This document shows positions 3,512-23,075 of a DNA stretch of 23,075 nt, in pieces. The DNA comes from Clostridia bacterium (GTDB lineage: Bacteria > Bacillota > Clostridia > UMGS1883). Position 1 is the stretch's first letter. Every line of letters begins with the position of its first letter. The stretch spans positions 1-23,075 of the forward strand of contig JAFUJG010000292.1 in the NCBI GenBank assembly GCA_017468215.1, in the 5' to 3' direction. A model generated the notes under the pieces. The model saw only the letters and a program-made list of their open reading frames with translations, did no database searches and was not told the DNA's origin. Position numbers and translations under genes: made by a program.

Positions 3512-3525
3512 TTGTCATAAAATAA

Positions 3526-3554: not shown

Positions 3555-3589
3555 AATACCAAATATTCTGTTGGCAAAGGAGAATTAAA

Positions 3590-4867: not shown

Positions 4868-4878
4868 AATAAGGTAAT

Positions 4879-4922
4879 TACAAATAGAAAAAGCGACCAA
4901 ACGGTCTCTTTTTCTATTTGTA
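4879..4922. terminator. Shared bidirectional terminator between metY and metF
   Basis: A 15 bp perfect outer stem (TACAAATAGAAAAAG at 4879-4893 with 4908-4922), one C/T mismatch, then GACC/GGTC around a 4-base AAAC loop. It fills the gap between the convergent stop codons (4867 and 4927). The stem carries U-rich arms in either direction rather than a long external T-run. Confidence 0.8.
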
Positions 4923-4926
4923 AAAA

Positions 4927-5820
4927 TCAAAAGGTTTTACCCAGAATATCGGAAAGATTTGCACTGATTTTCTCGGCAATATCGGGTTTGTTCATGGAGT
5001 AAACGTGCACATTTGTAATACCGTTTGCATAAAGGTCAATTATCTGGTCAGTTGCGTAGGCTATGCCTGCCTGCTTCATGCTGTCCGGGTCGGTGCCGAA
5101 TTTATCCACAAGGCTTGCAAAGCGGCGGGGCATAAAGGAGCCCGAGAGCTTTATCGCTCTTTCTACCTGGTTGGCATTGGTTATGGGCATGATGCCGGGA
5201 ATTACAGGCACATTAATGCCCGCTTCACGGATTTTGTACAAAAAGTTATAAAGAAGATTGTTATCAAAAAACATCTGAGTCGTAAGGAAGTCGCAGCCTG
5301 CGTCGACCTTTTCCTTCAAAAAGGCTATATCTTCCTTTTGGTTGGTGCTTTCGGGATGAATTTCGGGATAGCATGCACCGCCAATGCAAAAATCGGGCGA
5401 TATTTCCTTTAAGTCTCTAACAAGCTCAATTGCATGCTTATAATCCCAGCTTGAACGGTCGGCACCCTCCAGCTGAGGCGGAATATCACCTCTGAGCGCC
5501 ATAACGTTCTGGATGCCTGCATCCCTAATTTCTTTAATTTTACCTAAAACGGTCTGCTTTGTAGAGGAAACACAGGTTAAGTGTGCAAGGGTTGGAACGT
5601 CGTAAAGCTTTTTGATATTTGAGGCAATATCTAAGGTGTACTTGCTTGTACCTCCGCCTGCACCGTAGGTTACGCTCATAAACGAGGGGTTAAGCTTGGC
5701 AATCTCCTCTGTGGCATGCTTTACGCTGTCAAAACCCATTTCGGTTTTGGGCGGAAAAACTTCAAAAGAAAGTGATAATGTATCTTTATTGAGAATGTCA
5801 ATTATTTTCACGGTAAACAC
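4927..5820 (-). CDS. metF: 5,10-methylenetetrahydrofolate reductase
   Basis: A flavoprotein that reduces 5,10-methylene-THF to 5-methyl-THF, the methyl donor for methionine synthesis. The 297 residues match the bacterial MetF TIM barrel. Diagnostic blocks include SLSFEVFPPKTEMGFDS near the N-terminus, SVTYGAGGGTS, TLAHLTCVS, NVMALRGDIPP, IGGACYPEIHPES, FLTTQMFFDN (catalytic region) and PVIPGIMPITNANQ. The start is uncertain. The longest frame opens with GTG at 5820 behind a weak SD. A second GTG at 5811 would give M-K-I-I-D-I-L, closer to typical MetF N-termini, also without a good SD. The ATG seen at 5822 is in another frame that stops at once. The gene has its own promoter and converges with metY. 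Confidence 0.93.
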   Translation of the reverse strand: MFTVKIIDILNKDTLSLSFEVFPPKTEMGFDSVKHATEEIAKLNPSFMSVTYGAGGGTSKYTLDIASNIKKLYDVPTLAHLTCVSSTKQTVLGKIKEIRDAGIQNVMALRGDIPPQLEGADRSSWDYKHAIELVRDLKEISPDFCIGGACYPEIHPESTNQKEDIAFLKEKVDAGCDFLTTQMFFDNNLLYNFLYKIREAGINVPVIPGIMPITNANQVERAIKLSGSFMPRRFASLVDKFGTDPDSMKQAGIAYATDQIIDLYANGITNVHVYSMNKPDIAEKISANLSDILGKTF

Positions 5821-5839
5821 ATCCGTTCATTTTTTTCAG

Positions 5840-5869
5840 ATTATACCACTTCTTTGGGGATTTAGTCAA
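5840..5869 (-). promoter_or_regulatory. sigma-A promoter of metF
   Basis: Read on the minus strand: TTGACT (5869-5864), an 18 bp spacer and TATAAT (5845-5840). Transcription should begin near 5833, only about a dozen bases before the GTG start at 5820, so the leader is very short. Confidence 0.8.
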
Positions 5870-5938
5870 TAAAAGGAATTGAAAAGTTTATAAAAGCACT
5901 AAAAAAAGGGAAAATTTTGAAAATTTAACAAAATTGCA

Positions 5939-5967
5939 TAGACAGAAAATTTGCCAAATGATATAAT
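5939..5967 (+). promoter_or_regulatory. sigma-A promoter of the GH16/PLC-like operon
   Basis: TAGACA (5939-5944, one mismatch to TTGACA), 17 bp, TATAAT (5962-5967). Directly upstream, 5900-5935 is a run of A- and T-tracts resembling an UP element. The expected start near 5974 leaves a ~30-base leader with AGAAGGAAGG at 5987-5996 before ATG 6004. No hairpin or operator-like palindrome is evident. Confidence 0.7.
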
Positions 5968-6003
5968 TGTTATATATAAGAATTTTAGAAGGAAGGCATT
6001 AAA

Positions 6004-9000: not shown

Positions 9001-9162
9001 AACTTGTTTGCAAGCACACAGAACGACACATCCCTTGCATTCCAGACAAACATGCGTCTTATCATGAACACAGGTATAGGCGGTTGGGAAAATGAACCCG
9101 ACGACACAATGGTCTGGGACGACGGTTTGAGATGTCAGTATATAAGAAGCTTCCAATACTAA
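6004..9162 (+). CDS. Secreted multimodular GH16 beta-glucanase
   Basis: A 1052-residue exported glycoside hydrolase. A signal peptide (MKK, hydrophobic core, ASA|ND cut near residue 24) leads into a beta-rich module (about 25-112) ending RLFIWDGMLPLARL. Two F5/8 type C (discoidin/CBM32-like) domains follow at about 128-249 and 312-446, then a probable jelly-roll module (about 453-633) and an AbfB-like beta-trefoil (about 640-800; SFESVTMPGYFIVAEM...ATFYKEE). The C-terminal GH16 domain spans about 802-1052. Its active site is EIDIFE at 938-943: E938 nucleophile, D940 helper, E943 acid/base. FNGNSLNGQWW and YVEGRF...GYWNAFWL fit GH16 beta-1,3(4)-glucanases or laminarinases, though a galactan substrate cannot be excluded. 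There is no dockerin, SLH or LPXTG sequence, so it is free or held by its binding modules. It is the first gene of an operon; the next start is 19 bases downstream. Confidence 0.88.
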   Translation: MKKVLSIVLVIVMILSVVTIPASANDVSVKVNGKRTNAAAVFSVELHNAGASDEQVSIYLATFEADTSFKNVEKYIIDIAAESREYLTYTADISQGAARLFIWDGMLPLARLSSDDCEVVESLEGEKIDIGADDVWASNIDSTNPAANAVDQDAGTGWVVASASDDAPESITAYLGGDYILSQFSISFTGTCDYAVACSEDGENFTELKAATSTGNETFSVSQLRARYVRLTVFEATTVNELSVYGFEDNVGAILMSKEDMENDWHISVMDEMTYTDYIPLMGSKLYAEAEGNSLVLYDAVGRDGTVDGEKLAISSVTASQEPESANAAANVLDGDAATIWTASGVTDAAPATLVLDLGGTNNVSSVGIAFGNGSSRTYTYSVAVSTNKSSYTEVVSKTTAKSTDDIQKAYFTSTSARYIKLTFYARVDSSNNGWIRVSEVEAYGGDAPVEGAGGVLAQKSLDIPASRGDYEITFDLEVPSAIESEATNAFYSGISLTDGIISGGADLDNFTAIQIKLDNDGEKLAIKQMVSDYFNEGSPVALFENTFKKDEKVSFSMLVSPLNRCCFVTVSDSNVTETQAVYFSYSDAELTRNVGWSGYEANTIVFNTGAGAKNQMTITDFELRQVDRNIGTLSGADPINGIVRLEATRLSSYPTSGTAYGRYVYHNGADGIISVAANKNPAITRFVERRGLMGTGVSFESVTMPGYFIVAEMGDSYYLKKFKNTGDFLASATFYKEEAENVGYYTGSTYIYRSYLTAANSDATAMETKYLYDTTSDYITGDMKPWKMWTQAQGTFYLRSEGIAYVSDNFNGNSLNGQWWTNYPWKSNNPTNDSYNFTALITKNNVIVENGELLLKATKIDENAWTTDTNGETGKQYNGDFGRTDWKKWQGYVGVVSVQNKVYNKQCYVEGRFKDPDSPIGYWNAFWLTGRDSWPPEIDIFETLSSKYGHYAWHTALHGEGDSDNRFGKITSGTNIATGYNTWSMDWGYDYIKFYLNGNLFASTQNDTSLAFQTNMRLIMNTGIGGWENEPDDTMVWDDGLRCQYIRSFQY

Positions 9163-9181
9163 TCCAAAAGGAGACAGTAAA

Positions 9182-12100
9182 ATGAAAAAAATATTAACTA
9201 TTGCAATCAGCCTAATGCTTGTTTTTGTAATGACAATAACAAGCTCTGCGGCTACAATTGCATCGCTGAATGCAGCTGTGGGAACAGATGCCGACAGAAC
9301 TGTTCAGGTAACTGTTAATTATAACAGCCCTGAAGAAGCACAGGAGTCAACTTTGCTGGTTGTAAAAAAGGGTGTCAGCATTGTAACTGCAACAGCTGAT
9401 GAAATACATTATATTGACCAGAAGACCGTTGACGGCAACAGCGTTACATACTCAATTAAATTGGCAGAGGGCGACCGTATAGGTCAGTATGACCTGTACG
9501 TGGGCGGTACAAAGGTTGACGCTCCCGCATCAACAGAGATTAACTTTGATATGGATGCAACAACCACTATCAAGTTTGTTAATGAGGACGGCGAAGAAAT
9601 TGCAAGCCAGATAATGGTTTCAAGCCAGATTGGCGACACAATAACTGTAGGAAACTATGCTCCTCAGACAATTACCTACGGTACAAGCATCTACTCAAAG
9701 GATGCCTCTAATCCATCAACATTTATTGCTTCATCAAGTACAAACACTTTAACTGTTACATACACCTACCTTATGGAAAAGCGTGAGCAGATAACAGTTG
9801 GCGGTACAAGCTATGACCTTGTTACCGATAACCTTGTATTTAACGGTGACATGAGCCAGACTACAAACGACGGTACATATACCTACGTTACAGGCTGGCA
9901 GGGCGGTTATGTAAATAAGGTGCACAACCCGCTTTCCAACAGACCTTATCTTTACGAAGGCGGCGGTTGGAGGTCCACAACTGACCACCACTTTATCTAT
10001 ACTGCGGCGACAGACAGCAGCCTGGCATACGTTACAACGCCCGCTGTAACAACAATGACTAACAGCGAAGCATACCCCTTCAAGAGTGATGCCAGTGAAA
10101 ACTATATGGCATCCGTACTTACAAGCTGGATGATGGACTCCCGTGACAGCTCTGCATACCTTAAGGCAGAAAGCGGTAAGCAGTACTATATGTCCTTCGA
10201 TATTATGGCTACATCCATCAACGGCAACAGCTGGGTTAATAACGTTTTGGGATTTACTGCGGTAACTGAAAATGGTGACACCTATGCAAACAAAATCCCC
10301 GGTACAAACGGTGACATCAACACCCTTACATGGGTACTTGACAGTAGCATTGGCAGAGGTAAGCACACAACAGTGGCAAATCAGTGGACAACACTTTCAA
10401 CTGTTGCAACGGCAAATTCTGACGGTTATTTTATGTTCCAGTTAGGCTGGGCACATGAATGGGGTCAGACAAGTGTTCGTAATTTTAAAATTTACGAAAT
10501 TGAACCTTCTGCAACAAACAAGGACATTACTGTTACTTATACTGTAAACGACACAACTGTTGACTCTAAAACACAGACCATCAACACAAGTGCTGTTACA
10601 AAGGCAAACTTTGACGAATACTACTACCGTGCAAACGGCACAAATACACTTTATTATGCCGCAGCACAGAGCGTAAGTGACAATACAACCGTTGCCATGA
10701 CAGCACTTCCCAATTGGGGCAACTACGAAATCGATGACACAGTTAGTACAGACACAGCGGTTTATAAAATCGTAAGCGGAAACCTTGCTCCTAACGGTAA
10801 CTTTGAATACGGCATGAACGGCTGGTACAGCCGAGCAAACAGCACTCCTCCCACAACATATTCCGTAACAACAACAGATAAACCTGCAGATGCTCAGAGC
10901 GCAGCACTTTCAACAGGTGCAGGCGGTAATACTTCTGCAAACTCCATTAAACAGGCATGGGATATCGAGGTTGGTGACACCTACTACTACAGCATGTGGG
11001 TTAAGGCAGGTGACCAGTGGCACGGCTTAGGTCAGGCCGCCGAGCCTACAGTAGAAGCCTTGGACCTTATCGGAAATGGTGGTTTCGGAACAGGCGGTAC
11101 ATGGGTTCAGAAGACAGGCGTTTTCACAGCAACGCAGGAATATCTTGTATTCTTCGAGGGCTGGGGCAGTGTTGGTTTAGCTGATGTGGAAGTTTATAAG
11201 GTTGAGCTGGATGCTTCTCAGTCGGCTACAACAACAATTAAGTTTGTTGACGGCAATGGTAATGAAATTGCAACAAGCGTTACGGTTGACGGTATCATCG
11301 GAAGCGTAATTGACCTTACCGATACAACACTTATACCCGAGGCAATCACATACAACGGAAATGTTTACTCTAAAAAATCTACCAATGCAACAAGCTATAC
11401 AGTTGCAGGTCAGACCGACACAGTAACAATCACATACGAAACTGACGCAATCACAAGCATTGACGTGACAAGTGTAGCAGTTATTGACGGAAATTTGCCC
11501 ATACTTCCCACAACACTTAATGCTGCAACAGGTGCAGGTGCGGCAACAACTGTTACGGTAACAAGCTGGGATACATCCTCCCTTAAGGTTGGTGCTAACA
11601 CGGTTTACGGCACAGTTGACGGTCTTACAATAAAGGCACAGGCAAATGTAACGGTACTTGCTAAAACCTTTGACCTTAACGATGCCACAAGTACAACAGC
11701 GGGCAGCGGTAATGTGCTCAAGTTCCCCGTAGACCTTAGCGATGAGTTCTATATGGAATTTGACTTTGTATCGACAAATGTTGCAAATAACTGGCTTTAC
11801 ATATCCCAAGACGGTGCACTCTGGGGTGCAGGTCAGATTGGTATCGGTACAAATAACGACCAGACAGGTTCATTAAAGGCACAGCCTGTTGACGAAGTAA
11901 TCGGTACAATTACTGCAGGTACAACATACCGTATGTTTATCCGTGGTGATGCAAGTACAGATACTTACGATTTAACAGTTTACGATACAAATGCAAAAAC
12001 AACACTTGCCTCCGTTGCAGGCAGAAGCTTCCGTGCAGTGGGTGATACAATCAACTCTATTAACCTTTGCACAAACGGCGGCGGTGAATATACACTTTCC

Positions 12101-14971
12101 AACATTAAGGTACATTCTGCAACAGCAAGCGTTGAAACATATACCGTAAACGCAGTAGCAGCAGGTTCCACTCTTGAATCCTTCACAGCATATACAGGTT
12201 CAACCGATAAGCTGGGTTATGATGACAATGCTATATACCCCTATGTTAAGATACCTTCTTACGACGGTTACGTATTCAAGAACAAGACTGTTTCGGGCTC
12301 TGTTGTAACACTTAATTACGAAGCTGTAGCAGAAGCGGCGTTCTTTGACAATGTAGCTGATGATACAACCTTTGTATCGCTCAATATGCTGGGTGCACAC
12401 GATGCGTTTACGGCAAGTATATCGTCTTCTGATGCAAAATTTGACGCAGCAGGTACAGCACAGGGCGACAGCGGCAGTAAGAGTGCAGTTTCCAGCGCAT
12501 CTACTGCAGCTCCTATGAGTAAGGCACAGTCAAGCGATGCCCTTACAATGCTTAATCACGGTGTAAGATACTTCGACATTCGTCTTTCACGTTCCGATAC
12601 TACAGCAAAGGGCGGTCTTCTAGGACTGACTACAGTTAACCATACAAACGGCGTGTTCTACACAACACACGGTATGCTTTCCGATGAGTTCAGACCCATT
12701 GCCTACACAATTGCACAGTGGGCGAAGGAACATCCTGGTGAAATCATCGTGCTTGACTTCCAGGAAATGTGGGATAATACTTCCACGGCAGGCTCATCCG
12801 GTGACAGCGTTGCTCAGAGCTGGATTGACCTCAACAATCTCCTTACAGAAGCAGGCATTTACGACTATGTAACAATCAATAACTCAACAGACCTTTCTAC
12901 TGTTACATACGGCTCTCTTACAAATAATGGTACAAAGGCAGGCATCGTGCTCTTTGGCAGAGCAGTTGCAACAAATGCTTCTGTAGGCAGCTTTATCCTT
13001 CGTGGTACAACTTCTGCTGCATTTGACGGTAAGATGTACTCTAATTACGATAAGGGTGATGCAAGCGTATCAAGTAGCTCACTTGCGGCAGACTACATCC
13101 AGGCACAGGTTGACCATGCTTATACACAGACCGGCACAGTTAATAACATGTACCGTGTAATGCAGGCAATCAGTTCCACAAGTAACCTTATTAACCAGGC
13201 AGGTACAGATAACACATACATTGCAGGTGCGGTTAAGACCAACCCCACATGGCTTACAACCTTGCCTGTAATTATGGTAAACGATGCAACAGTTAACACA
13301 AGTGACCTTCTTGCAACTCTGAAGGCTTGCAATGTGCCTGTTGATGTTACAATGAACTACTCCGTTGGCGGCACAGTAACAGATTCCGGCAAGGCAAAGC
13401 TTATGGTAGGTACACTTTACACAAATGTTGTTGGTGCACTTTACGCAGGCGCAAGCGGTGAATATGCTGTTACAGAAGCAGTAACAGGTGAAGTGCCCGT
13501 ACCTTACAACGGTTCCGTTACAATAACAGTTGAAAAGCTTGGCAACGTTTACTCTACAAGAATAGAAAACAATGCTCACTCTGTTTACTCGGGTAACCTT
13601 GACGATGCTGCGGTATACGCCGGTAAGACAAACTTTGCGGCATACACATGGGGTCAGGACAATGACAGACTTGGTGTTGCAGTTCTTACGGCAGAACAGG
13701 GCAGAGACAATTATGCACTCAGTGTAAATGTTGTAAGAAAGAACTTTAACCAGGATTACAGAAACGTTAAGTTTTATGCTTTGCCTGTAATCGAATACAG
13801 AGCATTGGATTTAAGTAATAAGGATGCCCTTTTGGCAAAGCTGACAGACGATACACTTGTTGCAGCTATCAACCCTGATAATTATGATGTGGGTTCTCGT
13901 ATTATCGCACTTGACGGTGCAAAGATTAAGGCAGCGGCGGCAAGCGGTGATGTTGTTATTATCGGTAATGCACAGGGCGGTCTTTACGGTATTGAAGGTA
14001 GCAGCATGGCAATCGTTCCGGGCTACAATGTAACCGTTAACGGAGATATGACAGTTTCTTACGGTACATATACACTTCCTTCCGATAGCAGTGCTATTGC
14101 ATTCCATAAGGAGGACACCAAGGAAGTTTACAAGGCTGCCGAAACCGTAACAATTACAGCCGATACAGAATTTACCCCCTATTATTCCACCGGCGTGGAA
14201 ATGGTTGTGGGTGCACAGGTAAGAATTGGTGATGGTGTTACCGAGGATGGCAAGGCATCAAGCAGCAGCGGTCTCAGATTTATTACAACGGTAGACCGTA
14301 GTGATACCCTGGCAAGCCTTGACAGTGAAATTGATATGGAAATGGGTGTTGAAATCACAGCAGAAGGCAGCGAGACATCTCCTGTTGTAATCAAGGCAGA
14401 ACAGTGGCAGGACGGCGACGCTAAGAGTGTATTCACAACGGCTATCACAAACCTTGCAGTGGGTAACTTTAACCGTAAATTTACCGCTACACCCTATATT
14501 AAGGTAAACGACCGCACATTTTACGGAACACCCATAACAAGAAGTATTTATCAGGTTGCTGCAGGCTTGCTGACAAGCGATATGGAAAACACAGATGAAA
14601 CCGACTACGACGATACTGCACTTGCAGCTAAGCGAATGATTGAAGTACTCAACGCTTACGTTAACCAGACAGGTATCCGTCTGACACTTGCCACAAATGA
14701 CGAAACACAAACTGTAGAGTTTGTAGCTCGTACAGACGGAACCGGTGCATATTCGGGCGAAGTGTTCTTCGAGGTGGGAGAGACTATAGTAAACGGTACA
14801 GTTTATTCGGTAACTCTTACACCTGTGGGTGAAAACACTAAGATTAATATGGACTATTGGAACGAATACATCAGAATTAATAACAATAATTCTTCGGTTA
14901 AGGCTAAAACAACTCTTACCGAAAATTCCAACGGCACATATACTCTTACATTTGATACAGCAGACCTTTAA
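9182..14971 (+). CDS. Giant secreted protein with a PI-PLC-like phosphodiesterase domain
   Basis: A 1929-residue exported protein, translated from AAAAGGAGA at 9166-9174 as second gene of the GH16 operon. The signal peptide is cut near SSA|A (residues 22-25). Modules, approximately: MucBP-like repeat 128-199; CBM4/9-like 210-443 (DNLVFNGDM); linker 446-511; second CBM 528-676 (NLAPNGNFEYGMNGW); second MucBP-like repeat 682-756; Big_4 Ig-like 757-825; concanavalin-like 829-980; a degenerate repeat 983-1051. A PLC-like phosphodiesterase domain at 1053-1400 has GAHDAF (H1073), GVRYFDIRL (D1132, R1134), THGM (H1163) and a PGEIIVLDF strand. These match the two histidines and the D/R pair of the Bacillus cereus enzyme, so a Ca-independent cleavage mechanism is inferred. 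The C-terminus (1672-1830; GAQVRIGD, SSGLRFITTVDRSD) is a module I know from clostridial exoproteins but cannot name. Phosphatidylinositol, GPI or other phosphodiesters are candidate substrates; none is shown. Confidence 0.8.
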   Translation: MKKILTIAISLMLVFVMTITSSAATIASLNAAVGTDADRTVQVTVNYNSPEEAQESTLLVVKKGVSIVTATADEIHYIDQKTVDGNSVTYSIKLAEGDRIGQYDLYVGGTKVDAPASTEINFDMDATTTIKFVNEDGEEIASQIMVSSQIGDTITVGNYAPQTITYGTSIYSKDASNPSTFIASSSTNTLTVTYTYLMEKREQITVGGTSYDLVTDNLVFNGDMSQTTNDGTYTYVTGWQGGYVNKVHNPLSNRPYLYEGGGWRSTTDHHFIYTAATDSSLAYVTTPAVTTMTNSEAYPFKSDASENYMASVLTSWMMDSRDSSAYLKAESGKQYYMSFDIMATSINGNSWVNNVLGFTAVTENGDTYANKIPGTNGDINTLTWVLDSSIGRGKHTTVANQWTTLSTVATANSDGYFMFQLGWAHEWGQTSVRNFKIYEIEPSATNKDITVTYTVNDTTVDSKTQTINTSAVTKANFDEYYYRANGTNTLYYAAAQSVSDNTTVAMTALPNWGNYEIDDTVSTDTAVYKIVSGNLAPNGNFEYGMNGWYSRANSTPPTTYSVTTTDKPADAQSAALSTGAGGNTSANSIKQAWDIEVGDTYYYSMWVKAGDQWHGLGQAAEPTVEALDLIGNGGFGTGGTWVQKTGVFTATQEYLVFFEGWGSVGLADVEVYKVELDASQSATTTIKFVDGNGNEIATSVTVDGIIGSVIDLTDTTLIPEAITYNGNVYSKKSTNATSYTVAGQTDTVTITYETDAITSIDVTSVAVIDGNLPILPTTLNAATGAGAATTVTVTSWDTSSLKVGANTVYGTVDGLTIKAQANVTVLAKTFDLNDATSTTAGSGNVLKFPVDLSDEFYMEFDFVSTNVANNWLYISQDGALWGAGQIGIGTNNDQTGSLKAQPVDEVIGTITAGTTYRMFIRGDASTDTYDLTVYDTNAKTTLASVAGRSFRAVGDTINSINLCTNGGGEYTLSNIKVHSATASVETYTVNAVAAGSTLESFTAYTGSTDKLGYDDNAIYPYVKIPSYDGYVFKNKTVSGSVVTLNYEAVAEAAFFDNVADDTTFVSLNMLGAHDAFTASISSSDAKFDAAGTAQGDSGSKSAVSSASTAAPMSKAQSSDALTMLNHGVRYFDIRLSRSDTTAKGGLLGLTTVNHTNGVFYTTHGMLSDEFRPIAYTIAQWAKEHPGEIIVLDFQEMWDNTSTAGSSGDSVAQSWIDLNNLLTEAGIYDYVTINNSTDLSTVTYGSLTNNGTKAGIVLFGRAVATNASVGSFILRGTTSAAFDGKMYSNYDKGDASVSSSSLAADYIQAQVDHAYTQTGTVNNMYRVMQAISSTSNLINQAGTDNTYIAGAVKTNPTWLTTLPVIMVNDATVNTSDLLATLKACNVPVDVTMNYSVGGTVTDSGKAKLMVGTLYTNVVGALYAGASGEYAVTEAVTGEVPVPYNGSVTITVEKLGNVYSTRIENNAHSVYSGNLDDAAVYAGKTNFAAYTWGQDNDRLGVAVLTAEQGRDNYALSVNVVRKNFNQDYRNVKFYALPVIEYRALDLSNKDALLAKLTDDTLVAAINPDNYDVGSRIIALDGAKIKAAAASGDVVIIGNAQGGLYGIEGSSMAIVPGYNVTVNGDMTVSYGTYTLPSDSSAIAFHKEDTKEVYKAAETVTITADTEFTPYYSTGVEMVVGAQVRIGDGVTEDGKASSSSGLRFITTVDRSDTLASLDSEIDMEMGVEITAEGSETSPVVIKAEQWQDGDAKSVFTTAITNLAVGNFNRKFTATPYIKVNDRTFYGTPITRSIYQVAAGLLTSDMENTDETDYDDTALAAKRMIEVLNAYVNQTGIRLTLATNDETQTVEFVARTDGTGAYSGEVFFEVGETIVNGTVYSVTLTPVGENTKINMDYWNEYIRINNNNSSVKAKTTLTENSNGTYTLTFDTADL
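9562..9778 (+). repeat. Copy 1 of an internal MucBP-like module
   Basis: This encodes residues ~128-199 of the PLC-like protein, TTTIKFVNEDGEEIAS followed by a threonine-rich strand ending LTVTYTY. The same pattern (TTTIKFVDGNGNEIAT ... VTITYET) returns about 550 residues later. The two copies share the order IKFV-x-GxEIA, IG, Y/S-K and TVTxTY, as in mucin-binding-protein type surface repeats. Confidence 0.65.
11225..11450 (+). repeat. Copy 2 of an internal MucBP-like module
   Basis: This encodes residues ~682-756, the partner of the module at 9562-9778. Its position just before the Big_4 domain and just after the second CBM suggests that a block of binding module plus spacer repeat was duplicated within the gene. 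Confidence 0.65.
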
Positions 14972-14986
14972 TTAAAATTACCAGAT

Positions 14987-15021
14987 AAGCCGGGTTGAAA
15001 ATAACCCGGCTTGTTTTTTTT
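14987..15021 (+). terminator. Strong terminator of the GH16/PLC-like operon
   Basis: A perfect 10 bp stem AAGCCGGGTT (14987-14996) pairs with AACCCGGCTT (15003-15012) around a 6-base loop, followed by G and eight T. It begins 15 bases after the stop codon. Confidence 0.96.
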
Positions 15022-15036
15022 GTCAACATTTCTATA

Positions 15037-15065
15037 TGTACAAGCCGTTTGTAAAATGATACAAT
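15037..15065 (+). promoter_or_regulatory. Extended -10 promoter of the pectate lyase gene
   Basis: TGTACA (15037-15042, weak -35), 17 bp, TACAAT (15060-15065) preceded by TG at 15057-15058, an extended -10. The start is expected near 15072. AGGGGG at 15073-15078 lies 6 bases before ATG 15085, so the leader is again about a dozen bases. Confidence 0.65.
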
Positions 15066-15084
15066 CAAATAAAGGGGGATAAAA

Positions 15085-17961
15085 ATGAAAAAGCTGATAT
15101 CATTATTTTTAGTGTTTATATTAATTAGTATGGTGGTACCGAGCTATGCAAATGAGGATGAAGTGAGCCTTATGGCAGATGCGTTAATTGCGTTTCCCGG
15201 TGCAGAAGGTGCAGGCAGATATGCCACCGGCGGCAGAGGCGGAAGCGTTTATCATGTAACAAACCTTAACGACAGCGGAGCAGGCTCTTTCCGTGACGCT
15301 GTGTCGGCATCGAACAGGATTATTGTGTTTGATGTTGGCGGAACTATTGAGCTGACAGGCGACGTTGTTGTAAAAGGCAATAACACCATTGCCGGACAAA
15401 CTGCACCAGGGGGAGGAGGTATCACCCTCAGAGGCGGTAAAATAGGCATGGGCGGTGACAATATTATTATACGCTACGTTTCTTCACGCCCAGGTGAAAA
15501 CGGTTCGAGCGAATGCGATGCATGGGGCGGCGACAAGGGCTCCAACTCAATTATTGACCATTGCTCAATAGGTTGGGCAAATGACGAGCAGTTCGGTTTA
15601 TATTCGAACAATACAAATCAGACCGTTCAGTATTCTCTTATCGGTCCCTCCAACTGCATATCTTACCATTCAAAGGGTGCTCACGGCTTTGGTATAATGC
15701 TGGGTAAGGCGAATAATACATGGCATCATAATATGATTGCACATAACATTTCACGTAATTACCGTGGTAAGTCAACAGGGGCAATAGATTATGTAAATAA
15801 TGTTATATATAACTGGGGCTACCAGACCGCTTACGGTACCTTCGGGCAGGTAAACTATGTTGGCAACTACTTTAAGGCGGGTTTGTCGACAACTGGCGGT
15901 TACAGATATGTAGACCTTTCAAGCGGCACAGGCTATGACAAATTCCGCTTTTACCTTACAGGGAACAAAATGGTAACAAGCACAGGTGCAGATTACGACG
16001 CCTCTATGAACACAAATAACTGGAACGGCTTTAACTTCAGAGACACAGGGCTTACAAGGTCAAATCTTGAGGTTACAACGCCCATAGCGGTGTATGACAG
16101 CCAGGGGCAGAATGCCACTGTAGCCTACAATGCCCAAAGTGCCGATGCTGCTTTTGAAACAGTGCTCAATTATGCAGGCGCAGGCATCCGTGCTGACCTG
16201 AGACCTAAAATTGACAAGCAGGTAATGCAGGAAGCAAGGACAGGCACAGGTTACCTGACAGGCGGCCGTGACTTTGACACCCTTACCTCAAGCGATACTG
16301 CACTTAATGAGGCTATTGAAAAATACAGTATAAAAGAAATGAACTATGACGAGTATTATCCTCAGCCTGTAACAAAAAAAGAAATAACCGATGCTGATAA
16401 TGACGGCATGGACGATACATGGGAGCTGGCAAGAGGCCTTAATACTTCTGTTAACGATGCTATGGGCGACTACTTAGGTCAGGGCTATAACAATATCGAG
16501 TATTACATAAATGACCTTACGGTAGATTCTTTTCCTAAGGGGGTAGTAACACTTTCGTCCGAAACTGTAGAGCTGGGAGATAACTATGAAAAGGCAAAGG
16601 AAGCGGCCGACAGTCTTAAGCTTTCTGATGACGTTATAAAAGCCAAGGGCGATGTTATCCTGCCTGTGAAAGCAGGAAACGGTGCCGTAATTTCGTGGCA
16701 GAGCTCATCTGCGGCAATAGTTATAGAAAACAATGCAATTTCAAAGGTGAACAGACCCGGCACTTATGATGCGTCAGTTACGCTGACAGCAGGTGTAACC
16801 TACGGTGATTTTACCCTTAATAAGTCGTTTGTAGTTACTGTACCTGCACAGCCATTAAAGTTTGACTTCGGTAACGGCGATGTTCAGTCAGGCTTTGTGA
16901 AGGTGAATGCATCCAAGCTATATTCCCAAAGCTCGCCCTACGGCTTTGTAAGTGCATCCCAAAGCGATATGACCCGTGCACCGGGTAATGTGCCAAGCGG
17001 TTACGAGGCATTGCATGCTGACCAGATACAGGGCGAAACCACCTTCAAAGCAGAGGTTCCTAACGGAACATATACGGTGGTTGTTCACTACGGCTGTTGG
17101 AACACAAGCTTTGGAACAAGCTTTACAATAGAAGGGGTAAACACAGGAAACCTTTATGCAACAGATGTGGCACAGTATGTAACCGAAATAAAAATAACAG
17201 ACGGTTTGTTTGAGCTTAACATCAGAAAAGGTGATAAGGCATATGGCGGCTATGTAAACGGACTGGAAATTTTAAAGCCGGAATATTACTTTGATTTTGG
17301 CAGCGGAAATGTTCAGGAGGGATACACGCAGGTAACGGCTGCCGATGTATATTCTGATTCGGTAAGATTCGGTTTTAGCGATGCATCATCCCAATATGAT
17401 ATGGAACGAGCACCGGGTGGTATTAAAGCAGGCTATGAAAATCTTCATGCTGACCAGATACAGGGTACAGCCACTTTTAAGGTAAAGCTTCCCAACGGAA
17501 AGTATACCGTAACGGCTCACTATGGCTGCTGGAATTCGGGCTACGGCACACGTTATAATATTGAGGGTGTTGACAGTGGAAACCTGTATTCCACAACTGC
17601 AGCCGAATATGTGACCGAGGTTAGTGTAACAGACGGTGTGCTTGATTTAGGCATAAGCAAGGGTTCAAAAAGCTATGGTGGCTACATAAATGGGCTGGAT
17701 ATTGTTATGATTGAGCCCGACAAAAAAGCTACTATTAAGTACTCCGACGGTACAGTCACGGTTGTTGGTGAAAATGTGACAAAGGCAGTGCTGATACACG
17801 CATCCTACAACGGCGATGCTATGAGCTATGTCAGCGTAACACCGCTTAAATTTGATAATGGCGTGGCAACTGTGACAAAAACTCTTAAACAAGGCGACAA
17901 GCTTTTTGTCTGGAACAGTATAACGAAAATGGAGCCATTAAGTGCTGTATATGTAAATTGA
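15085..17961 (+). CDS. Secreted PL1 pectate lyase with tandem binding modules
   Basis: A 958-residue exported polysaccharide lyase for de-esterified pectin. The signal peptide is cut near SYA|NE (residue 22). The parallel beta-helix lyase domain (about 36-430) opens with AFPGAEGAGRYATGGRGG and VTNLNDSGAGSFRDAV, the PL1 subgroup signature. It carries HHNMIAHNISRNYRG, in which R224 or R227 is the probable catalytic arginine. A calcium-loop segment (DADNDGMDDTWE, about 436-447) marks its end. Next come an Ig-like strand module (about 480-588; VISWQSSSAAIVIENNAI, atrophied Big type) and two tandem ~142-residue modules (591-732 and 733-875) like the N-terminal domain of rhamnogalacturonan acetylesterases. 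The C-terminal module (about 880-958) is AVLIHASYN...GDKLFVWNSITKMEPL. No anchor is visible. The domains fit the pectin context set by the GH78 gene. Confidence 0.9.
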   Translation: MKKLISLFLVFILISMVVPSYANEDEVSLMADALIAFPGAEGAGRYATGGRGGSVYHVTNLNDSGAGSFRDAVSASNRIIVFDVGGTIELTGDVVVKGNNTIAGQTAPGGGGITLRGGKIGMGGDNIIIRYVSSRPGENGSSECDAWGGDKGSNSIIDHCSIGWANDEQFGLYSNNTNQTVQYSLIGPSNCISYHSKGAHGFGIMLGKANNTWHHNMIAHNISRNYRGKSTGAIDYVNNVIYNWGYQTAYGTFGQVNYVGNYFKAGLSTTGGYRYVDLSSGTGYDKFRFYLTGNKMVTSTGADYDASMNTNNWNGFNFRDTGLTRSNLEVTTPIAVYDSQGQNATVAYNAQSADAAFETVLNYAGAGIRADLRPKIDKQVMQEARTGTGYLTGGRDFDTLTSSDTALNEAIEKYSIKEMNYDEYYPQPVTKKEITDADNDGMDDTWELARGLNTSVNDAMGDYLGQGYNNIEYYINDLTVDSFPKGVVTLSSETVELGDNYEKAKEAADSLKLSDDVIKAKGDVILPVKAGNGAVISWQSSSAAIVIENNAISKVNRPGTYDASVTLTAGVTYGDFTLNKSFVVTVPAQPLKFDFGNGDVQSGFVKVNASKLYSQSSPYGFVSASQSDMTRAPGNVPSGYEALHADQIQGETTFKAEVPNGTYTVVVHYGCWNTSFGTSFTIEGVNTGNLYATDVAQYVTEIKITDGLFELNIRKGDKAYGGYVNGLEILKPEYYFDFGSGNVQEGYTQVTAADVYSDSVRFGFSDASSQYDMERAPGGIKAGYENLHADQIQGTATFKVKLPNGKYTVTAHYGCWNSGYGTRYNIEGVDSGNLYSTTAAEYVTEVSVTDGVLDLGISKGSKSYGGYINGLDIVMIEPDKKATIKYSDGTVTVVGENVTKAVLIHASYNGDAMSYVSVTPLKFDNGVATVTKTLKQGDKLFVWNSITKMEPLSAVYVN
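16858..17280 (+). repeat. Tandem carbohydrate-binding-like module, copy 1
   Basis: Encodes residues ~591-732 of the pectate lyase, from KFDFGNGDVQSGF to YVNGLEILKPE. It shares with copy 2 the blocks FDFGxGxVQxGxxxV, MxRAPG, LHADQIQG, VHYGCWN/AHYGCWN, IEGVxxGNLY and YGGYxNGL. Confidence 0.85.
17281..17710 (+). repeat. Tandem carbohydrate-binding-like module, copy 2
   Basis: Encodes residues ~733-875, directly abutting copy 1. The protein match is strong while DNA third positions have drifted, so the duplication is old and both copies appear to be kept by selection. Confidence 0.85.
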
Positions 17962-17968
17962 TAAAACG

Positions 17969-17993
17969 ACCGAGGGTATCCTCGGTGGTTTTT
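17969..17993 (+). terminator. Terminator after the pectate lyase gene
   Basis: ACCGAGG (17969-17975) pairs with CCTCGGT (17980-17986) around a GTAT loop, followed by GG and five T. It starts 8 bases after the stop codon. Confidence 0.85.
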
Positions 17994-17996
17994 ACG

Positions 17997-18023
17997 TTGA
18001 AAAAATAAGAAAAGTGATATAAT
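17997..18023 (+). promoter_or_regulatory. Extended -10 promoter of the DUF1349 gene
   Basis: TATAAT at 18018-18023 is preceded by TG at 18015-18016 (extended -10). TTGAAA at 17997-18002 lies at a short 15 bp spacing, which the extended -10 may compensate. GGAGGA at 18041-18046 is the SD, 9 bases before ATG 18056. Confidence 0.65.
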
Positions 18024-18055
18024 TGTTTTAAGAACTATATGGAGGATTTATAAAC

Positions 18056-18670
18056 ATGAAAATTAATGCAAAAACCATGAAATGGACAAGGGCACCAAAG
18101 GAGTATGCCATAACGGAAGATAGAGTAGAAATGCTGACTGAGCCCCATACAGATTTGTGGCAGAGAACATATTATCATTTTAGAAACGATAACGCACCGG
18201 CACTTCAAATGGAAACAGAGGAGGAGTATTTTTCCTTCATTGTAAAGACAGATTACGACACTAAGACAAGATATGACCAAAGCGGAGTTATTATGTATCT
18301 TGACAGCGACAATTGGCTCAAGGCAGCAATGGAATACGAAAACAAAGAAATACAGCGAATGGGATGCGTTGTAACAAATGACGGTTACTCGGATTGGTCT
18401 TCGGTAGACGTTGATGCGAATATAAAATCCATGTGGTTCAGATTAAGTCGCAGGGGAAAGGATTTTTGCGTGGAAAACTCTGTGGATGGTATAAACTTTA
18501 AACAGATGCGAATTTTCCATATGTTTAATGCTGAAAAGAAAATAAGTTTCGGTGTATTTGCTTGTAGTGCAGAAAATTCCGTGTTCAAGGCGACCTTTAC
18601 AGATATGGAAGTTACAGAATGCAAATGGCTTGCACACGATGGACAACAACCGGATGAAGACTTGAGTTAA
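18056..18670 (+). CDS. DUF1349-family protein
   Basis: A 204-residue protein of the DUF1349 family, a concanavalin-like beta-sandwich related to yeast Ree1. Recognisable blocks are the opening MKWTRAPKEY, then TDYDTKTRYDQSGVIMYLDSDNWLKAAMEY, SDWSSV, MWFRLSRRGKDFCVENSVDG and the late KISFGVFACSAENSVFKATFTDMEV. The length is normal for a stand-alone member. No signal peptide or membrane segment is visible, so it is cytoplasmic, unlike its three exported upstream neighbours. Biochemical function is unknown; the fold suggests binding of a sugar or small ligand, and its place after the pectin and glucan enzymes suggests a role in carbohydrate use, but that is inference. It has its own promoter and terminator. 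The acidic tail (QQPDEDLS) is probably disordered. Confidence 0.85.
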   Translation: MKINAKTMKWTRAPKEYAITEDRVEMLTEPHTDLWQRTYYHFRNDNAPALQMETEEEYFSFIVKTDYDTKTRYDQSGVIMYLDSDNWLKAAMEYENKEIQRMGCVVTNDGYSDWSSVDVDANIKSMWFRLSRRGKDFCVENSVDGINFKQMRIFHMFNAEKKISFGVFACSAENSVFKATFTDMEVTECKWLAHDGQQPDEDLS

Positions 18671-19237: not shown

Positions 19238-19275
19238 TAGTATCATAAAATTAAAGATTGTTGGGGAGTGATGAT

Positions 19276-20547
19276 GTGGCTAATTTTGTTTATTTAAATA
19301 AAGCAGAATTTGATAAATTTGCTGATAGAATGTTTAATATTCTCGCTGATAATATGACCGTCATTGCTCCTACTGGGAACAGCCGTGAAGAAGATTTTAA
19401 ATTATGGCATCAAGCTATTGGTGGAGCTATTAAAAATGAAAATAGATACATTGTGCTCATTTATGAGAATGGAACTGACAATATTATTGGATTTTTTCAA
19501 TATTCTATAGATACTGATAGTTTTATGATGGAAGAATTACAGATTTGTTCAGGATTTCAAGGAAAGGATAATATCTTCAGAGATTTATTTGGTTTTGTTT
19601 TTAACAGTATTAGTCCGAAATTATTGTATGTAGAGGCCTATGCAAACAAGGCGAATCATAAATCTATAGGCATTTTGGGTAAGCTCGGCTTGAAAATTAT
19701 AGGCGAGAATAAGAATGGGTTAAGCTTTCATTTTAAAGGCGATTTTGTTGATTTTATGAGTTGGCATGCAAAGGGGGAAACATCGTTGAAAGCGGCAATT
19801 GCTGTTATGGCAAAAAGTATACAAGCAATATTAAAGGATAATCTTGCTTGTATTTATCTGTATGGTTCTGTTGCTATGGATGATTTCAAACTTGGTTGGA
19901 GCGATATTGATATAGTTTGCTTGACGAGAGAAACGATAGCTGATTCCGAAGCAGAAAAATTAGTTAGTTTAAGACAACAACTGTTAAATGAGGAGAGGGA
20001 AAATCAATATTATCATAGTTTTGAAGGGATTATTACAACGACTAATGAGTTTGTAAATAACAGATATAATAGAGTTGTATATTGGGGAACGAGCGGGCAG
20101 AAAATTATTGACAATTATCATTTCGACGAATGTTCGCTCTTTGAATTGATAAAATACGGAAAGTTAATATATGGCGAAGATATCCGTGGCAAAATGTCTG
20201 TACCTACTTATGAAGAATTGAAGGGTAATGTTCAAAGACATTACGAAACGATTAGAAAGTATGTCCAAAAAACAAATGAAAATATATATTCTTGCGGATG
20301 GCTATTGGATATAGCACGATGTATTTATACACTGCGACATAATGATATAATAAGTAAAACAAAGGCAGGGGAATGGACGCTTGAGGCGAATATCTGTCCT
20401 GAAAAGGAACAAATGATTCAGACACTTAAAGTAAGAAAAGAGCCATTGAAATTCAAAGAGCAAAGTGATATGAAACAATGGTTAAGTCTACTTGGCCCAT
20501 CAGTACAAAAATTTGCAGATGTTTTAGAGATTGAACTTAACAGATAA
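19276..20547 (+). CDS. GNAT acetyltransferase-AadA-like nucleotidyltransferase fusion
   Basis: 423 residues from GTG 19276. That start is preferred because GGGGAG (19263-19268) lies 7 bases upstream; the TTG at 19258 has no SD and the nearby ATGs are in a frame that stops quickly. Residues ~1-160 form a GNAT fold: the acceptor-side strand IIGFFQYSI, motif A around ELQICSGFQGKDN (the acetyl-CoA loop QGKDN is a weak QxxGxG) and motif B NHKSIGILGKLGLKIIG. Residues ~175-423 form a Pol-beta type nucleotidyltransferase with IYLYGSVAMDDF and SDIDIV: G197-S198, then D210 and D212 as metal ligands. Its C-terminal helical part (ARCIYTLRHNDIISKTKAGEW) resembles streptomycin/spectinomycin adenylyltransferases. 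A bifunctional drug- or small-molecule-modifying enzyme is the likeliest role; substrate unproven. Codon use is far more AT-rich than genes before 18670, suggesting acquisition. Confidence 0.82.
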   Translation: MANFVYLNKAEFDKFADRMFNILADNMTVIAPTGNSREEDFKLWHQAIGGAIKNENRYIVLIYENGTDNIIGFFQYSIDTDSFMMEELQICSGFQGKDNIFRDLFGFVFNSISPKLLYVEAYANKANHKSIGILGKLGLKIIGENKNGLSFHFKGDFVDFMSWHAKGETSLKAAIAVMAKSIQAILKDNLACIYLYGSVAMDDFKLGWSDIDIVCLTRETIADSEAEKLVSLRQQLLNEERENQYYHSFEGIITTTNEFVNNRYNRVVYWGTSGQKIIDNYHFDECSLFELIKYGKLIYGEDIRGKMSVPTYEELKGNVQRHYETIRKYVQKTNENIYSCGWLLDIARCIYTLRHNDIISKTKAGEWTLEANICPEKEQMIQTLKVRKEPLKFKEQSDMKQWLSLLGPSVQKFADVLEIELNR

Positions 20548-20564: not shown

Positions 20565-20605
20565 AAACAAAGGACTACTGCAGAGAGACAGTAGTCCTTT
20601 GTTTG
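20565..20605 (+). terminator. Terminator after the GNAT-nucleotidyltransferase gene
   Basis: A perfect 16 bp stem AAACAAAGGACTACTG (20565-20580) pairs with 20589-20604 around an 8-base loop. The 3' arm ends TTTGTTTG, so the U-tract lies partly within the stem. It insulates the downstream gene from read-through. Confidence 0.9.
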
Positions 20606-20621: not shown

Positions 20622-20635
20622 CGGAACATGTTCCG
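20622..20635. promoter_or_regulatory. Palindromic operator candidate upstream of the HEPN-STAND gene
   Basis: CGGAACATGTTCCG is a perfect 14-base palindrome ending 11 bases before the -35 box. Further CCG triplets flank it at 20614-20616 and 20641-20643. The position suits a dimeric regulator. It is too short to be a useful terminator and has no T-run. No regulator gene is present in the window. Confidence 0.5.
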
Positions 20636-20646
20636 ATATTCCGTAT

Positions 20647-20675
20647 TTGCATATTTCGACAATATATGATATAAT
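20647..20675 (+). promoter_or_regulatory. Extended -10 promoter of the HEPN-STAND gene
   Basis: TTGCAT (20647-20652), 17 bp, TATAAT (20670-20675) with TG at 20667-20668 forming an extended -10. The start is expected near 20682. GAGGAG at 20701-20706 is the SD, 8 bases before ATG 20715. Confidence 0.8.
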
Positions 20676-20714: not shown

Positions 20715-23075
20715 ATGTCTAATAGATACTGTGGAAGTGCACTTCATAGAAAAGCAGAAATGTATGCTATGGTTATGTCTATTGAAGAGGATTTTATATG
20801 CTATTTTAACGAAAAGTTAACCATACAAGACATTCCGGATGCCGTTGCCCAAAAAGCAAAGAAAGTGAAAGAAGAAAAATCGGAATTTCTTTCGCTTTTG
20901 CGTGGGTTAGATATTCAAGCATACATAGAAATATGCAATGCGAATGTATTGAAATTAAATATTACTTCGAAAGAGAAAGACTTTTTAAATACGACCTTAA
21001 ATAGAATAATACCGATAAGAAATGCTATTATGCATCCAAGACCATTAGGCTATTTTGACTATTCTATTTTAAAAACGGTATTTGATAATATTTGCAATGA
21101 TTTAAAAAATCTGGAATGGGTAAATGTAAGGCGTACGCAATATCAAATACAAAATGAACCAGATTCTTTAGCACTCCCTCCAGACAATTTGAAGAAAAAT
21201 GAAAAAATTATTGAAAACTTGCCTGCTATTCCAGATTATGAAGAAACGAGTTTTGTTGGTAGACATTGCGAAATTGGCGAAATAAAGGCGAAACTACAAA
21301 AACGAAATGTTAATGTTTTAAGTATAATTGGTGATGGAGGAGTTGGAAAAACCGCTACAACATTAAATTTGTTATACAATTTACTTGACGACCCTGATTG
21401 CAACTATGAAGTAATTCTGTGGACGTCTCTTAAAACAAATGAACTATCAGAAGATAGTTTTAAGGAAATTGGTGATTCAATAAAAACTACCTCTCAAATG
21501 TATGAAAAACTTGCAGAATTTGTTGGAAGTGATTCCATTGAGGATACAAGAAAATTCATAATTGAATTAGCTCAAAATTTCAATACTTTATTTGTTCTTG
21601 ATAACTTGGAAACAATAAACACATCGGAAATTAAAGATTTTATTGATGAATTTACTGAATACGGCAAAGTTTTAATAACTTCAAGAATTGGACTTGGAGA
21701 AATGGAACACAGATACAAGTTAAGTGGACTTAATGATAGTGATGTGTTAGAGTATACGGATAGACTTTTAGAACTCTATGGATATGAGTGTTATTTTGAT
21801 GATGAACAAAAAAAGAATATTGTAATCAAGGAATTGCATTCAAACCCCCTTGCAATCAAGTGGTTTATACGTTGCTTATATAATGGACAAACCGAAAAAG
21901 AAATTTTAAGTCATAAAGAAGATGTTATTAATTTCTGTATGGCAAATGTATATGATAAGCTTTCCGAAGAATCTCACCGAGTATTAGATATACTGACAGT
22001 TGCGGGAGTTGAATTATCGTTTCCAGAACTTATGTATTATTTAGAAGGTGATATTTCAGAATGCACAAAGGTAAAATATGCTATTAATGAATTAGGGAAA
22101 TGTAATTTTATTGACGAAGAAAAGTTTAGAAGAGCTGGAAGTGTTGCGGTGACAGATTTTGCGCAAGAATTTCTTAGACTCAATTACGTGGGAGATTCTA
22201 ACGAAATCATTAAATTCAAGGGATTAGAAAGGCGTCTCACAGCATTTGGACAACAACTATTAATTATGAAGGCGAAAGATAAGTTGAGCATCAAAGCTTT
22301 ATATTACAACAATAAGGGAGAATTAGTTGTTGCAATGGAGCTTGATAAAGCACTAGTACTTAAATTTCAAGGAAAGGTAGAGGAATCCGCGGAGGCGATT
22401 AAGTTTGCTAAAGAATTATTGCCAGGATATTATGAAAACTATCTTGTTTCTGCAACCATATATGGTCCCACAAGTCCGTTAAAGGCCGCAGAAGAATATG
22501 AATTAGCTATAAAACACAGTAAGGAATCTGAAGAAAAAGTGCGAGTGTACACTCAATATATTGACTTCTTAATTAGAACAAATGATTATCAAAAAGCTAT
22601 TGAGGCGATAGAAATTTCAGAAACATTTGATTCAAATTGCTTTGAAATACAAATGCAAAAAGCAAAGGTTTTCGCTTATATTGGTCGTTATGATGATGCT
22701 GAAAGTGTTTTAAATAATATTCCGTTCGCAACCTTATCTAGCAATAAAAAGAACAAAATTCAAACGAGACGTGCAGATATATGTCGTAGACGTAGTGAAT
22801 TGGTTAAGTTTTGGGAAATAAAAAAGAAATTAGAGTATTTAAAAGCATCATATACCTGCTTAAATGCTTGTGAAGAACCTGATGATAAAGTCTTTGAGTA
22901 TATGGCTAAGATTCTTGATTCTTTGAGTTATATGTGTACAGATGATGAAGCATTGGAGTTTATTTGGGAAATAGTAGACAAGCAATACCAAAACATGAAA
23001 CAGACATCTCTGTATAAAAAATTCTGTCAGCAGATGAGAACAAGAATGCAACAAATACAAAATGAGGAGTTCAAA
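20715..23075 (+). CDS. HEPN-STAND(NB-ARC)-TPR protein, 3' end beyond window
   Basis: An open frame of 787 codons runs to the last base with no stop, so the protein is incomplete. Residues ~1-140 are alpha-helical and carry IPIRNAIMHPRP: R102, N103 and H107 form the RNxxxH motif of HEPN ribonucleases (the Swt1-like type by eye). A P-loop NTPase of STAND/NB-ARC kind follows: FVGRHCEIGEI near 185, Walker A GDGGVGKT at 206-213, Walker B LFVLDNLE with D296, a KVLITSR sensor strand near 320, and NPLAIKW, the counterpart of the NB-ARC GLPLA motif. A winged-helix-like region comes next. From about 540 onward there are TPR-like helical repeats (YQKAIEAIEIS, GRYDDAESVLNNI). The architecture of RNase effector, switch NTPase and repeat sensor fits an NLR-like antiphage protein that shuts down the cell on sensing infection; this is inferred from architecture. 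It has its own promoter, is AT-rich, and sits next to repeats. Confidence 0.85.
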   Translation, partial: MSNRYCGSALHRKAEMYAMVMSIEEDFICYFNEKLTIQDIPDAVAQKAKKVKEEKSEFLSLLRGLDIQAYIEICNANVLKLNITSKEKDFLNTTLNRIIPIRNAIMHPRPLGYFDYSILKTVFDNICNDLKNLEWVNVRRTQYQIQNEPDSLALPPDNLKKNEKIIENLPAIPDYEETSFVGRHCEIGEIKAKLQKRNVNVLSIIGDGGVGKTATTLNLLYNLLDDPDCNYEVILWTSLKTNELSEDSFKEIGDSIKTTSQMYEKLAEFVGSDSIEDTRKFIIELAQNFNTLFVLDNLETINTSEIKDFIDEFTEYGKVLITSRIGLGEMEHRYKLSGLNDSDVLEYTDRLLELYGYECYFDDEQKKNIVIKELHSNPLAIKWFIRCLYNGQTEKEILSHKEDVINFCMANVYDKLSEESHRVLDILTVAGVELSFPELMYYLEGDISECTKVKYAINELGKCNFIDEEKFRRAGSVAVTDFAQEFLRLNYVGDSNEIIKFKGLERRLTAFGQQLLIMKAKDKLSIKALYYNNKGELVVAMELDKALVLKFQGKVEESAEAIKFAKELLPGYYENYLVSATIYGPTSPLKAAEEYELAIKHSKESEEKVRVYTQYIDFLIRTNDYQKAIEAIEISETFDSNCFEIQMQKAKVFAYIGRYDDAESVLNNIPFATLSSNKKNKIQTRRADICRRRSELVKFWEIKKKLEYLKASYTCLNACEEPDDKVFEYMAKILDSLSYMCTDDEALEFIWEIVDKQYQNMKQTSLYKKFCQQMRTRMQQIQNEEFK

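Follow-up and report, generated by a model that had tools for sequence, protein, structure and literature searches.

Bacterial proteins in which an N-terminal HEPN domain is joined to a STAND nucleoside triphosphatase (NTPase) have been described as in silico predictions. Anantharaman et al. (2013; PubMed Central [PMC] accession PMC3710099) assigned HEPN domains fused to "STAND-ATPase, TPR, S1" to the Abi2/Swt1 group, whose members they described as mostly active, and noted that bacterial proteins with an N-terminal HEPN domain and a STAND NTPase carry cold-shock OB-folds "in some cases." A later survey (eLife 2021; PMC8195603) described a predicted prokaryotic conflict system whose STAND module is fused to a HEPN ribonuclease acting as the effector. 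Since both papers describe such fusions, the HEPN-STAND kind is already known as a prediction. We report here on a gene of this kind at the 3′ end of JAFUJG010000292.1, a contig of a Clostridia bacterium (assembly GCA_017468215.1) that we analyzed as a single window. The gene is truncated by the contig end; it is a real member of the predicted class of ribonuclease-armed bacterial NLRs and is intact as far as it is present. A defence role is likely, and we think it probable that the protein works as a single-protein, NLR-like abortive-infection switch, in which ATP-driven assembly would join HEPN domains in pairs that act as ribonucleases.

The window protein shares with the proteins of the 2013 survey a predicted N-terminal HEPN domain, a STAND NTPase, and TPRs, and its relatives share with them a C-terminal OB-fold RNA-binding domain as well; the examples named there (Npun_F6454, MED222_16016, Desac_1927, and a Bacillus cereus protein) are likened to them by described architecture alone (PMC3710099). 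A specialist aware of that survey would find the HEPN-NB-ARC design unsurprising. The system of PMC8195603 differs in that its HEPN-bearing STAND module is described as inactive and as paired with a second STAND protein, whereas here the Walker A and B motifs are intact and the protein is single. S1-like and cold-shock OB-folds are also named in conflict systems in the excerpts of a related survey, PMC7159879, in which we found no HEPN-NB-ARC protein. The features of the gene are as follows.

20715 to 23075, plus strand: HEPN-NB-ARC-TPR protein, an open reading frame of 787 codons with no stop up to the contig end
20701 to 20706, plus strand: Shine-Dalgarno-like GAGGAG, read from the sequence, 8 nucleotides 5′ of the ATG at 20715
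20736 to 21164, plus strand: predicted HEPN ribonuclease domain, residues 8 to 150 (all-helical model and sequence profiles)
21018 to 21035, plus strand: putative catalytic motif R102-N103-A-I-M-H107, with R and H invariant in aligned homologues
21246 to 22199, plus strand: NB-ARC STAND NTPase (nucleotide-binding domain, ARC, and winged-helix region), residues 178 to 495
21330 to 21353, plus strand: Walker A motif GDGGVGKT (residues 206 to 213), with K212 invariant in aligned homologues
21600 to 21602, plus strand: Walker B aspartate D296, invariant in 251 aligned proteins
22200 to 23075, plus strand: TPR-like helical repeats (candidate sensor; weak TPR-type matches), cut by the contig end

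The window is the entire contig (23,075 bases, from an assembly of 1.67 Mb with a completeness of 73% and a contamination of 3%); therefore, the gene was cut by the assembly. Because full-length relatives are mostly 865–890 amino acids long, we estimate that about 80–95 residues are missing at the open 3′ end. The reading frame has two possible ATG starts, at 20697 and 20715. We prefer the latter as the likelier start, because GAGGAG stands 8 nucleotides upstream of it and because the alignment pairs it, with no gap, with the first methionine of the relative at locus L004, the nearest one in the domain alignment. With this codon as residue 1, every residue and motif cited in the original prediction, which had read the gene as a HEPN ribonuclease fused to an NB-ARC STAND NTPase and a TPR-like sensor, is present at its place.

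The NB-ARC domain is the best Pfam match of the protein, scoring 32.7 bits against a curated cut-off of 23.5. Both Walker motifs are intact, and the TSR sensor (ITSR, ending at R324) and the NPL motif (NPLAIKW, beginning at N377) are found as well, so that the assignment to the NB-ARC STAND NTPases is borne out. Conservation was assessed in a joint alignment of 251 proteins, made up of 120 window-like proteins (the window's own included), 120 Rhizobium-type proteins (including the Rhizobium etli query), and 11 from further loci; the counts cover only those proteins that have a residue at the position in question. K212 is lysine in 119/119 window-like, 120/120 Rhizobium-type, and 11/11 further proteins, and D296, R324, and P378 are identical in all 251; N377 is asparagine in the window-like set only and is lysine or arginine in the Rhizobium-type set. 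The RNxxxH motif of the first domain stands as it had been read. Its arginine, R102, is retained by every protein counted (118 window-like, 118 Rhizobium-type, and 11 further), as is H107 (118, 119, and 11), and N103 is asparagine in 118/118, 115/118 (the other three have alanine), and 11/11. E24 is also conserved across the 251 proteins, some of which are at about 25% identity. Judged from these alignments, the conserved catalytic and nucleotide-binding residues are not due to chance.

The evidence that the first domain belongs to the HEPN superfamily comes from profiles and from the motif. R102 and H107 supply the Rx4-6H motif of the superfamily (Swt1/Abi2 group). In an alignment of the domain from 13 diverse members, HEPN_Swt1 matches seven (best E 5.8e-4) and Abi_2 two (best E 9e-4); neither matched the window's own first domain in the same scan. 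Two HEPN_Swt1 proteins gave weak profile matches in which R-N-x3-H is in register, at 13.1 and 11.2 bits; of 2000 shuffles made, hmmsearch reported 1603, and the best of these scored 9.9 bits. The hhalign probability for the HEPN_Swt1 comparison was 38%. The model of the domain is all-helical (mean predicted local distance difference test score [pLDDT] 87.3). A structure search with the isolated domain gave no significant PDB fold match, and comparison with the PDB by sequence gave no significant match. That result is what one would expect if the domain were an unrelated helical bundle, perhaps a CARD-like adaptor, in which RNxxxH had arisen by chance. We regard this as very improbable, since E24, D26, R102, N103, M106, and H107 are invariant in the 13 members at a mean column identity of 44%, more than half of those members match HEPN_Swt1, and the 2013 survey places HEPN domains before STAND NTPases in the same architecture (PMC3710099). 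The predicted HEPN identity rests on the profile matches and the invariant R and H, not on the structure search: the first domain appears to be a Swt1/Abi2-like HEPN on weak, in-register profile evidence, with a fold that lacks a clear structural match. RNA cutting and antiphage activity are suggested by analogy with characterized HEPN and STAND proteins.

The helical repeats proposed for the C-terminal part are weak in the window protein, whose TPR-type Pfam matches all fall below the cut-offs, and clearer in its relatives: TPR_19 exceeds the Pfam cut-off in P0004 and P0079, and in the model of the full-length relative P0004 (mean pLDDT 89.7) the repeat region consists of helix hairpins. Among 105 proteins of the window family, mean pairwise identity is 64% in the nucleotide-binding domain, 47% in the HEPN domain, 34% in the cold-shock domain, and 31% in the repeat region, the lowest of six segments. 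The repeats are the part that varies most, which fits a part that meets changing invaders. Relatives also carry a C-terminal cold-shock (OB-fold) domain; the window protein stops earlier, at the contig edge. A profile of 13 relatives' tails finds cold-shock-domain proteins in the PDB (to E 1.2e-11), and Pfam CSD matches 9 of the 13 (best 2.5e-10). A model built from these tails places a cold-shock domain near the C terminus in 108 of 109 window-like proteins of at least 820 amino acids, a count that is partly circular because the model was built from the same family, and in 10 of 11 further ones. The same model finds it in none of 112 Rhizobium-type proteins at E 1e-3 (seven at 0.05); in that set the domain is supported by precomputed PF00313 labels on some of the 120 listed and by protein names, for instance "cold shock domain-containing protein." The full design of the family would then be HEPN, NB-ARC, TPR, and cold-shock domain, the first three of which can be recognized, in that order, in the window protein.

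A search of 5.8 billion proteins with the window protein returned 287 at E ≤ 0.001, its own entry included, of which the best 120 were listed; the nearest homologues (903 and 879 amino acids) are 64–65% identical over 98–99% of the query. A search with the R. etli relative returned 187 at the same threshold, a set that may overlap the first; the organism-named proteins among its best 120 are from Alphaproteobacteria. No PADLOC family matches the window protein at E ≤ 1. Relatives are encoded on three IMG/VR contigs and on 11 plasmid records: one from Planococcus (29.6% identity over 96% of the query), three from Rhizobium (24.6–26.3% over 73–74%; the two R. etli rows look like copies), six from Acinetobacter that look like copies of one another (25.2% over 57%), and one from Nostoc that covers 18% of the query, in the NB-ARC part only. 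Among 98 related genomes, a long match occurs only in the window's own, and the stretches matched in 25 others span no more than some 160 of the 874 positions of the model. Of 398 genomes from the phylum, each scored on two candidates at most, none but the window's own passes E 1e-30. This patchy distribution is the pattern of a mobile defence gene. We also observed in Butyrivibrio sp. INlla18 (L016:10001-10276) a matching frame of 92 amino acids of the NB-ARC region, which looks like a decayed copy. The assembly to which the window belongs contains one further NB-ARC match (G000:C104:2541-2666), a weak one that falls below the Pfam cut-off.

The company that the relatives keep points in the same direction. 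By greedy longest-frame calling we collected 125 proteins of at least 100 amino acids within 7 kb of the relatives at 12 loci, leaving out the window itself and loci L005 (a short contig), L016 (the 92-residue remnant), and L017 (no HEPN domain). Twenty of the 125, chosen by size and nearness and none of them from L010, were traced singly against PADLOC, and 7 of the 12 neighbourhoods hold a traced hit at E ≤ 1e-10. Avs2-type and Avs1a/LmuA-type proteins lie directly upstream of the relative at L013. At L014, the divergent upstream neighbour is a PARIS-type AriAB protein, with a type III restriction enzyme also near, and at L012 PtuA (Septu-type) is two genes upstream. Methyltransferases at L004 and L008, a DpdF-like protein at L007, and a match to a dGTPase model at L015 are weak evidence for a defence context. 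One Rhizobium copy has a type I restriction-modification operon one gene away. As a control we drew 12 segments, each 17 kb long, from other genomes belonging to the class, called 159 proteins, and scanned 125 from nine stretches, having dropped L063, L066, and half of L074 to equalize the numbers (L073 yielded none). PADLOC families at E ≤ 1e-10 numbered 176 around the homologues (25 of them listed) and 19 in the control, for 125 proteins each; family counts differ from protein counts, and the control was not matched genome by genome. The control also matches LmuA (8.7e-16), Avs1a (9.4e-11), and AriA (8.5e-11), more weakly than the neighbourhoods of the homologues do. Homologues thus occur near defence genes as well as on plasmids and viral contigs, in keeping with the proposal that the gene is a candidate defence gene. 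Two further observations concern neighbours. In a Mycoplasmatota genome (L008:4840-9696), three genes are tightly packed upstream of the relative, one for a methyltransferase, one whose product gives two GHKL-type ATPase matches, and one for a 431-amino acid protein, with a Schlafen-type helicase downstream; the cluster is possibly an unnamed defence operon. A metallophosphatase-type protein with DUF4116 (L011:6911-9586) adjoins the Lachnospiraceae relative.

The same mobile settings could be taken to mean that the protein is an addiction or exclusion factor of plasmids and prophages, the same ribonuclease switch being triggered by a competing element and protecting the element and not the cell. 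Relatives sit on plasmids and viral contigs; on one IMG/VR contig the relative comes directly after an amidase with CW_7 repeats, a prophage tail protein lying further upstream. A position after amidase and tail genes is a usual place for accessory prophage genes. Serine recombinases occur near three other relatives (L006, L007, and L012), and of the four annotated plasmid neighbourhoods, two have toxin-antitoxin genes no more than a few kb away. We saw no partner gene common to the four. We consider such a role unlikely, and it would depart from the abortive-infection switch in beneficiary and trigger only.

Quite unlikely, in our estimation, is a transcriptional or RNA regulator, in which NB-ARC and TPR would act in the manner of LuxR/MalT-type STAND regulators, with HEPN and cold-shock domains that bind RNA and do not cut it. 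Several Rhizobium-type relatives are named "LuxR family glucitol operon transcriptional activator" at the source, and the genes around the R. etli copy include sugar-transport genes and, up to 10 kb away, none annotated as a defence gene. RNA binding without cutting has also been proposed for some HEPN domains (PMC3710099). On the other hand, the invariance of the catalytic arginine and histidine in those of the 251 proteins that have a residue there is unexpected for a mere binder, the Pfam matches of the window proteins and relatives include no helix-turn-helix domain, and neighbourhoods vary between relatives.

In the window itself the gene stands alone: no other defence gene was found in the 23,075 bases, and carbohydrate and housekeeping genes lie further upstream. 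The segment is AT-rich, as had been noted, with a G+C content of 0.32 (0.25 at third codon positions) compared with 0.45 for the gene at 15085–17961. The upstream gene at 19258–20547 (plus strand) has a G+C content of 0.33 and so shares the AT-rich segment with the HEPN-NB-ARC gene; its product combines a nucleotidyltransferase domain with a C-terminal domain of the AadA type and has a weak acetyltransferase (GNAT) match at the N terminus, and part of the protein matches PADLOC PDC-S09 at 1e-7. Two elements lie between these genes.

20565 to 20604, plus strand: perfect hairpin of 16 bp whose 3′ arm is T-rich (inverted repeat I1)
20622 to 20635, no strand assigned: palindrome CGGAACATGTTCCG, upstream of the gene

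The hairpin is possibly the terminator of the upstream gene; a terminator scan of the window did not list it. The operator and promoter originally proposed for the HEPN-NB-ARC gene exist as sites. The window contains three perfect palindromes of 14 nucleotides, of which this is one; it has no second copy there at up to two mismatches, is found within 200 bp upstream of none of 12 relatives, and is probably not a conserved operator. A promoter-like TTTGCA-18-TATAAT is present at 20646–20675, but such sites are no more frequent in the window than in shuffled sequence (23 versus 22.2). Further upstream, a carbohydrate-degradation stretch (1223–18670) includes an alpha-L-rhamnosidase, a GH16/F5-F8 protein, an agarase/YXIM-type galactose-binding protein, and DUF1349, interleaved with a Cys/Met pyridoxal phosphate enzyme and MTHFR. 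Between its glycoside-hydrolase-type genes lies a 1929-amino acid protein (9182–14971, plus strand) with no Pfam match at E ≤ 1e-5.

How the abortive-infection switch might operate can be suggested from known families, by analogy with which nucleotide switching, oligomerization, a dimeric ribonuclease, and abortive infection would all be expected. At rest the protein would be autoinhibited, probably as an ADP-bound monomer. The TPR superhelix, together with the cold-shock domain in intact relatives, would sense a phage or plasmid product; the terminal OB-fold should bind single-stranded RNA or DNA and could instead position RNA for cutting. Sensing would cause NB-ARC to exchange ADP for ATP and to oligomerize, gathering the N-terminal HEPN domains. 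The active site of HEPN ribonucleases is built across a dimer; with R102 and H107 of each subunit contributing, assembly would thus switch RNA cleavage on. Loss of tRNA or other RNA would stop translation, and the infected cell would die or become dormant before phage release.

Among experimentally studied systems, several resemble parts of this design. DS-11 (CBS-HEPN) has a HEPN ribonuclease effector, as here, regulated instead by CBS domains, and its defence is lost when the HEPN catalytic residues are mutated; the same work validated four systems with HEPN and seven with P-loop NTPases (PMC13092281). We found no tested HEPN-NB-ARC protein in a search of open PMC papers, which takes in few subscription papers and only part of the make-up of these four HEPN systems. 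The TIR-STAND-TPR antiphage proteins of P4-like satellites combine an N-terminal effector, a STAND NTPase, and a C-terminal TPR in a single protein, as here; the effectors are TIR, SIR2, or DNA nuclease, and HEPN systems are mentioned separately, with no HEPN-STAND protein named in the available excerpts (PMC9122126). Membership of Avs (AVAST) was considered and rejected, the window protein matching no PADLOC family at E ≤ 1 and having NB-ARC as its best Pfam match. The bNACHT antiphage proteins likewise have a STAND NTPase, an N-terminal effector, and a C-terminal sensor, and both Avs and bNACHT belong to other NTPase clades and use other effectors than the window protein. In Avs, too, a STAND NTPase is combined with an N-terminal effector and a C-terminal sensor (PMC13245274).

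The nearest worked example appears to be human SAMD9. A Foldseek search with the model of a full-length relative gave the STAND-TPR protein 6mfv as best match and, within the first nine, plant NLR resistosomes, CED-4, and five SAMD9 entries (9zjv, 9zjr, 9zjw, 9zjz, and 9zjs; the five ranks are 4, 5, 7, 8, and 9; E 8.6e-7 to 1.6e-5); with TM-scores of 0.14–0.16 of the query, these matches show no whole-length superposition. SAMD9 has the order SAM-Alba-SIR2-NTPase-TPR-OB and a virus-activated anticodon nuclease activity (PMC13245274). SAMD9/SAMD9L and the window family have in common the order ribonuclease effector, P-loop STAND-type NTPase, TPR, and OB-fold; the logic proposed for both is that a virus activates RNA cutting and translation comes to a halt. 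They differ in that SAMD9 carries SAM and SIR2 domains beside an Alba-type tRNase and has glycine where the Walker A motif should have lysine (PMC13245274), whereas the window protein has a predicted HEPN nuclease and an intact Walker A motif. We rejected membership of the SAMD9 family: the protein gave no SAM, Alba, or SIR2 Pfam match at E ≤ 1, and its N-terminal part is a single short domain, entirely helical, that NB-ARC follows immediately. SAMD9 would then be an analogue. Taken further, and only tentatively, for we think it rather doubtful, the window family could be a widespread class of bacterial NLRs and the prokaryotic counterpart of SAMD9. Its cold-shock domain would read phage RNA or single-stranded DNA (or pass the substrate on), and a ring formed by NB-ARC would bring HEPN domains together in pairs as a ribonuclease, possibly an anticodon nuclease, amounting to NLR immunity that senses nucleic acid and not protein.

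The family is broad, it has no PADLOC profile matching the window protein, and it offers a clean, testable case with an instructive parallel in SAMD9. If our reading is correct, bacteria own NLR-type receptors whose weapon is RNA cleavage, the ligand of the OB-fold end becomes a testable question in simple laboratory bacteria, and the arrangement of ribonuclease, STAND switch, TPR, and OB-fold is in antiviral use in both prokaryotes and eukaryotes, built in the manner of SAMD9 around an unrelated nuclease.

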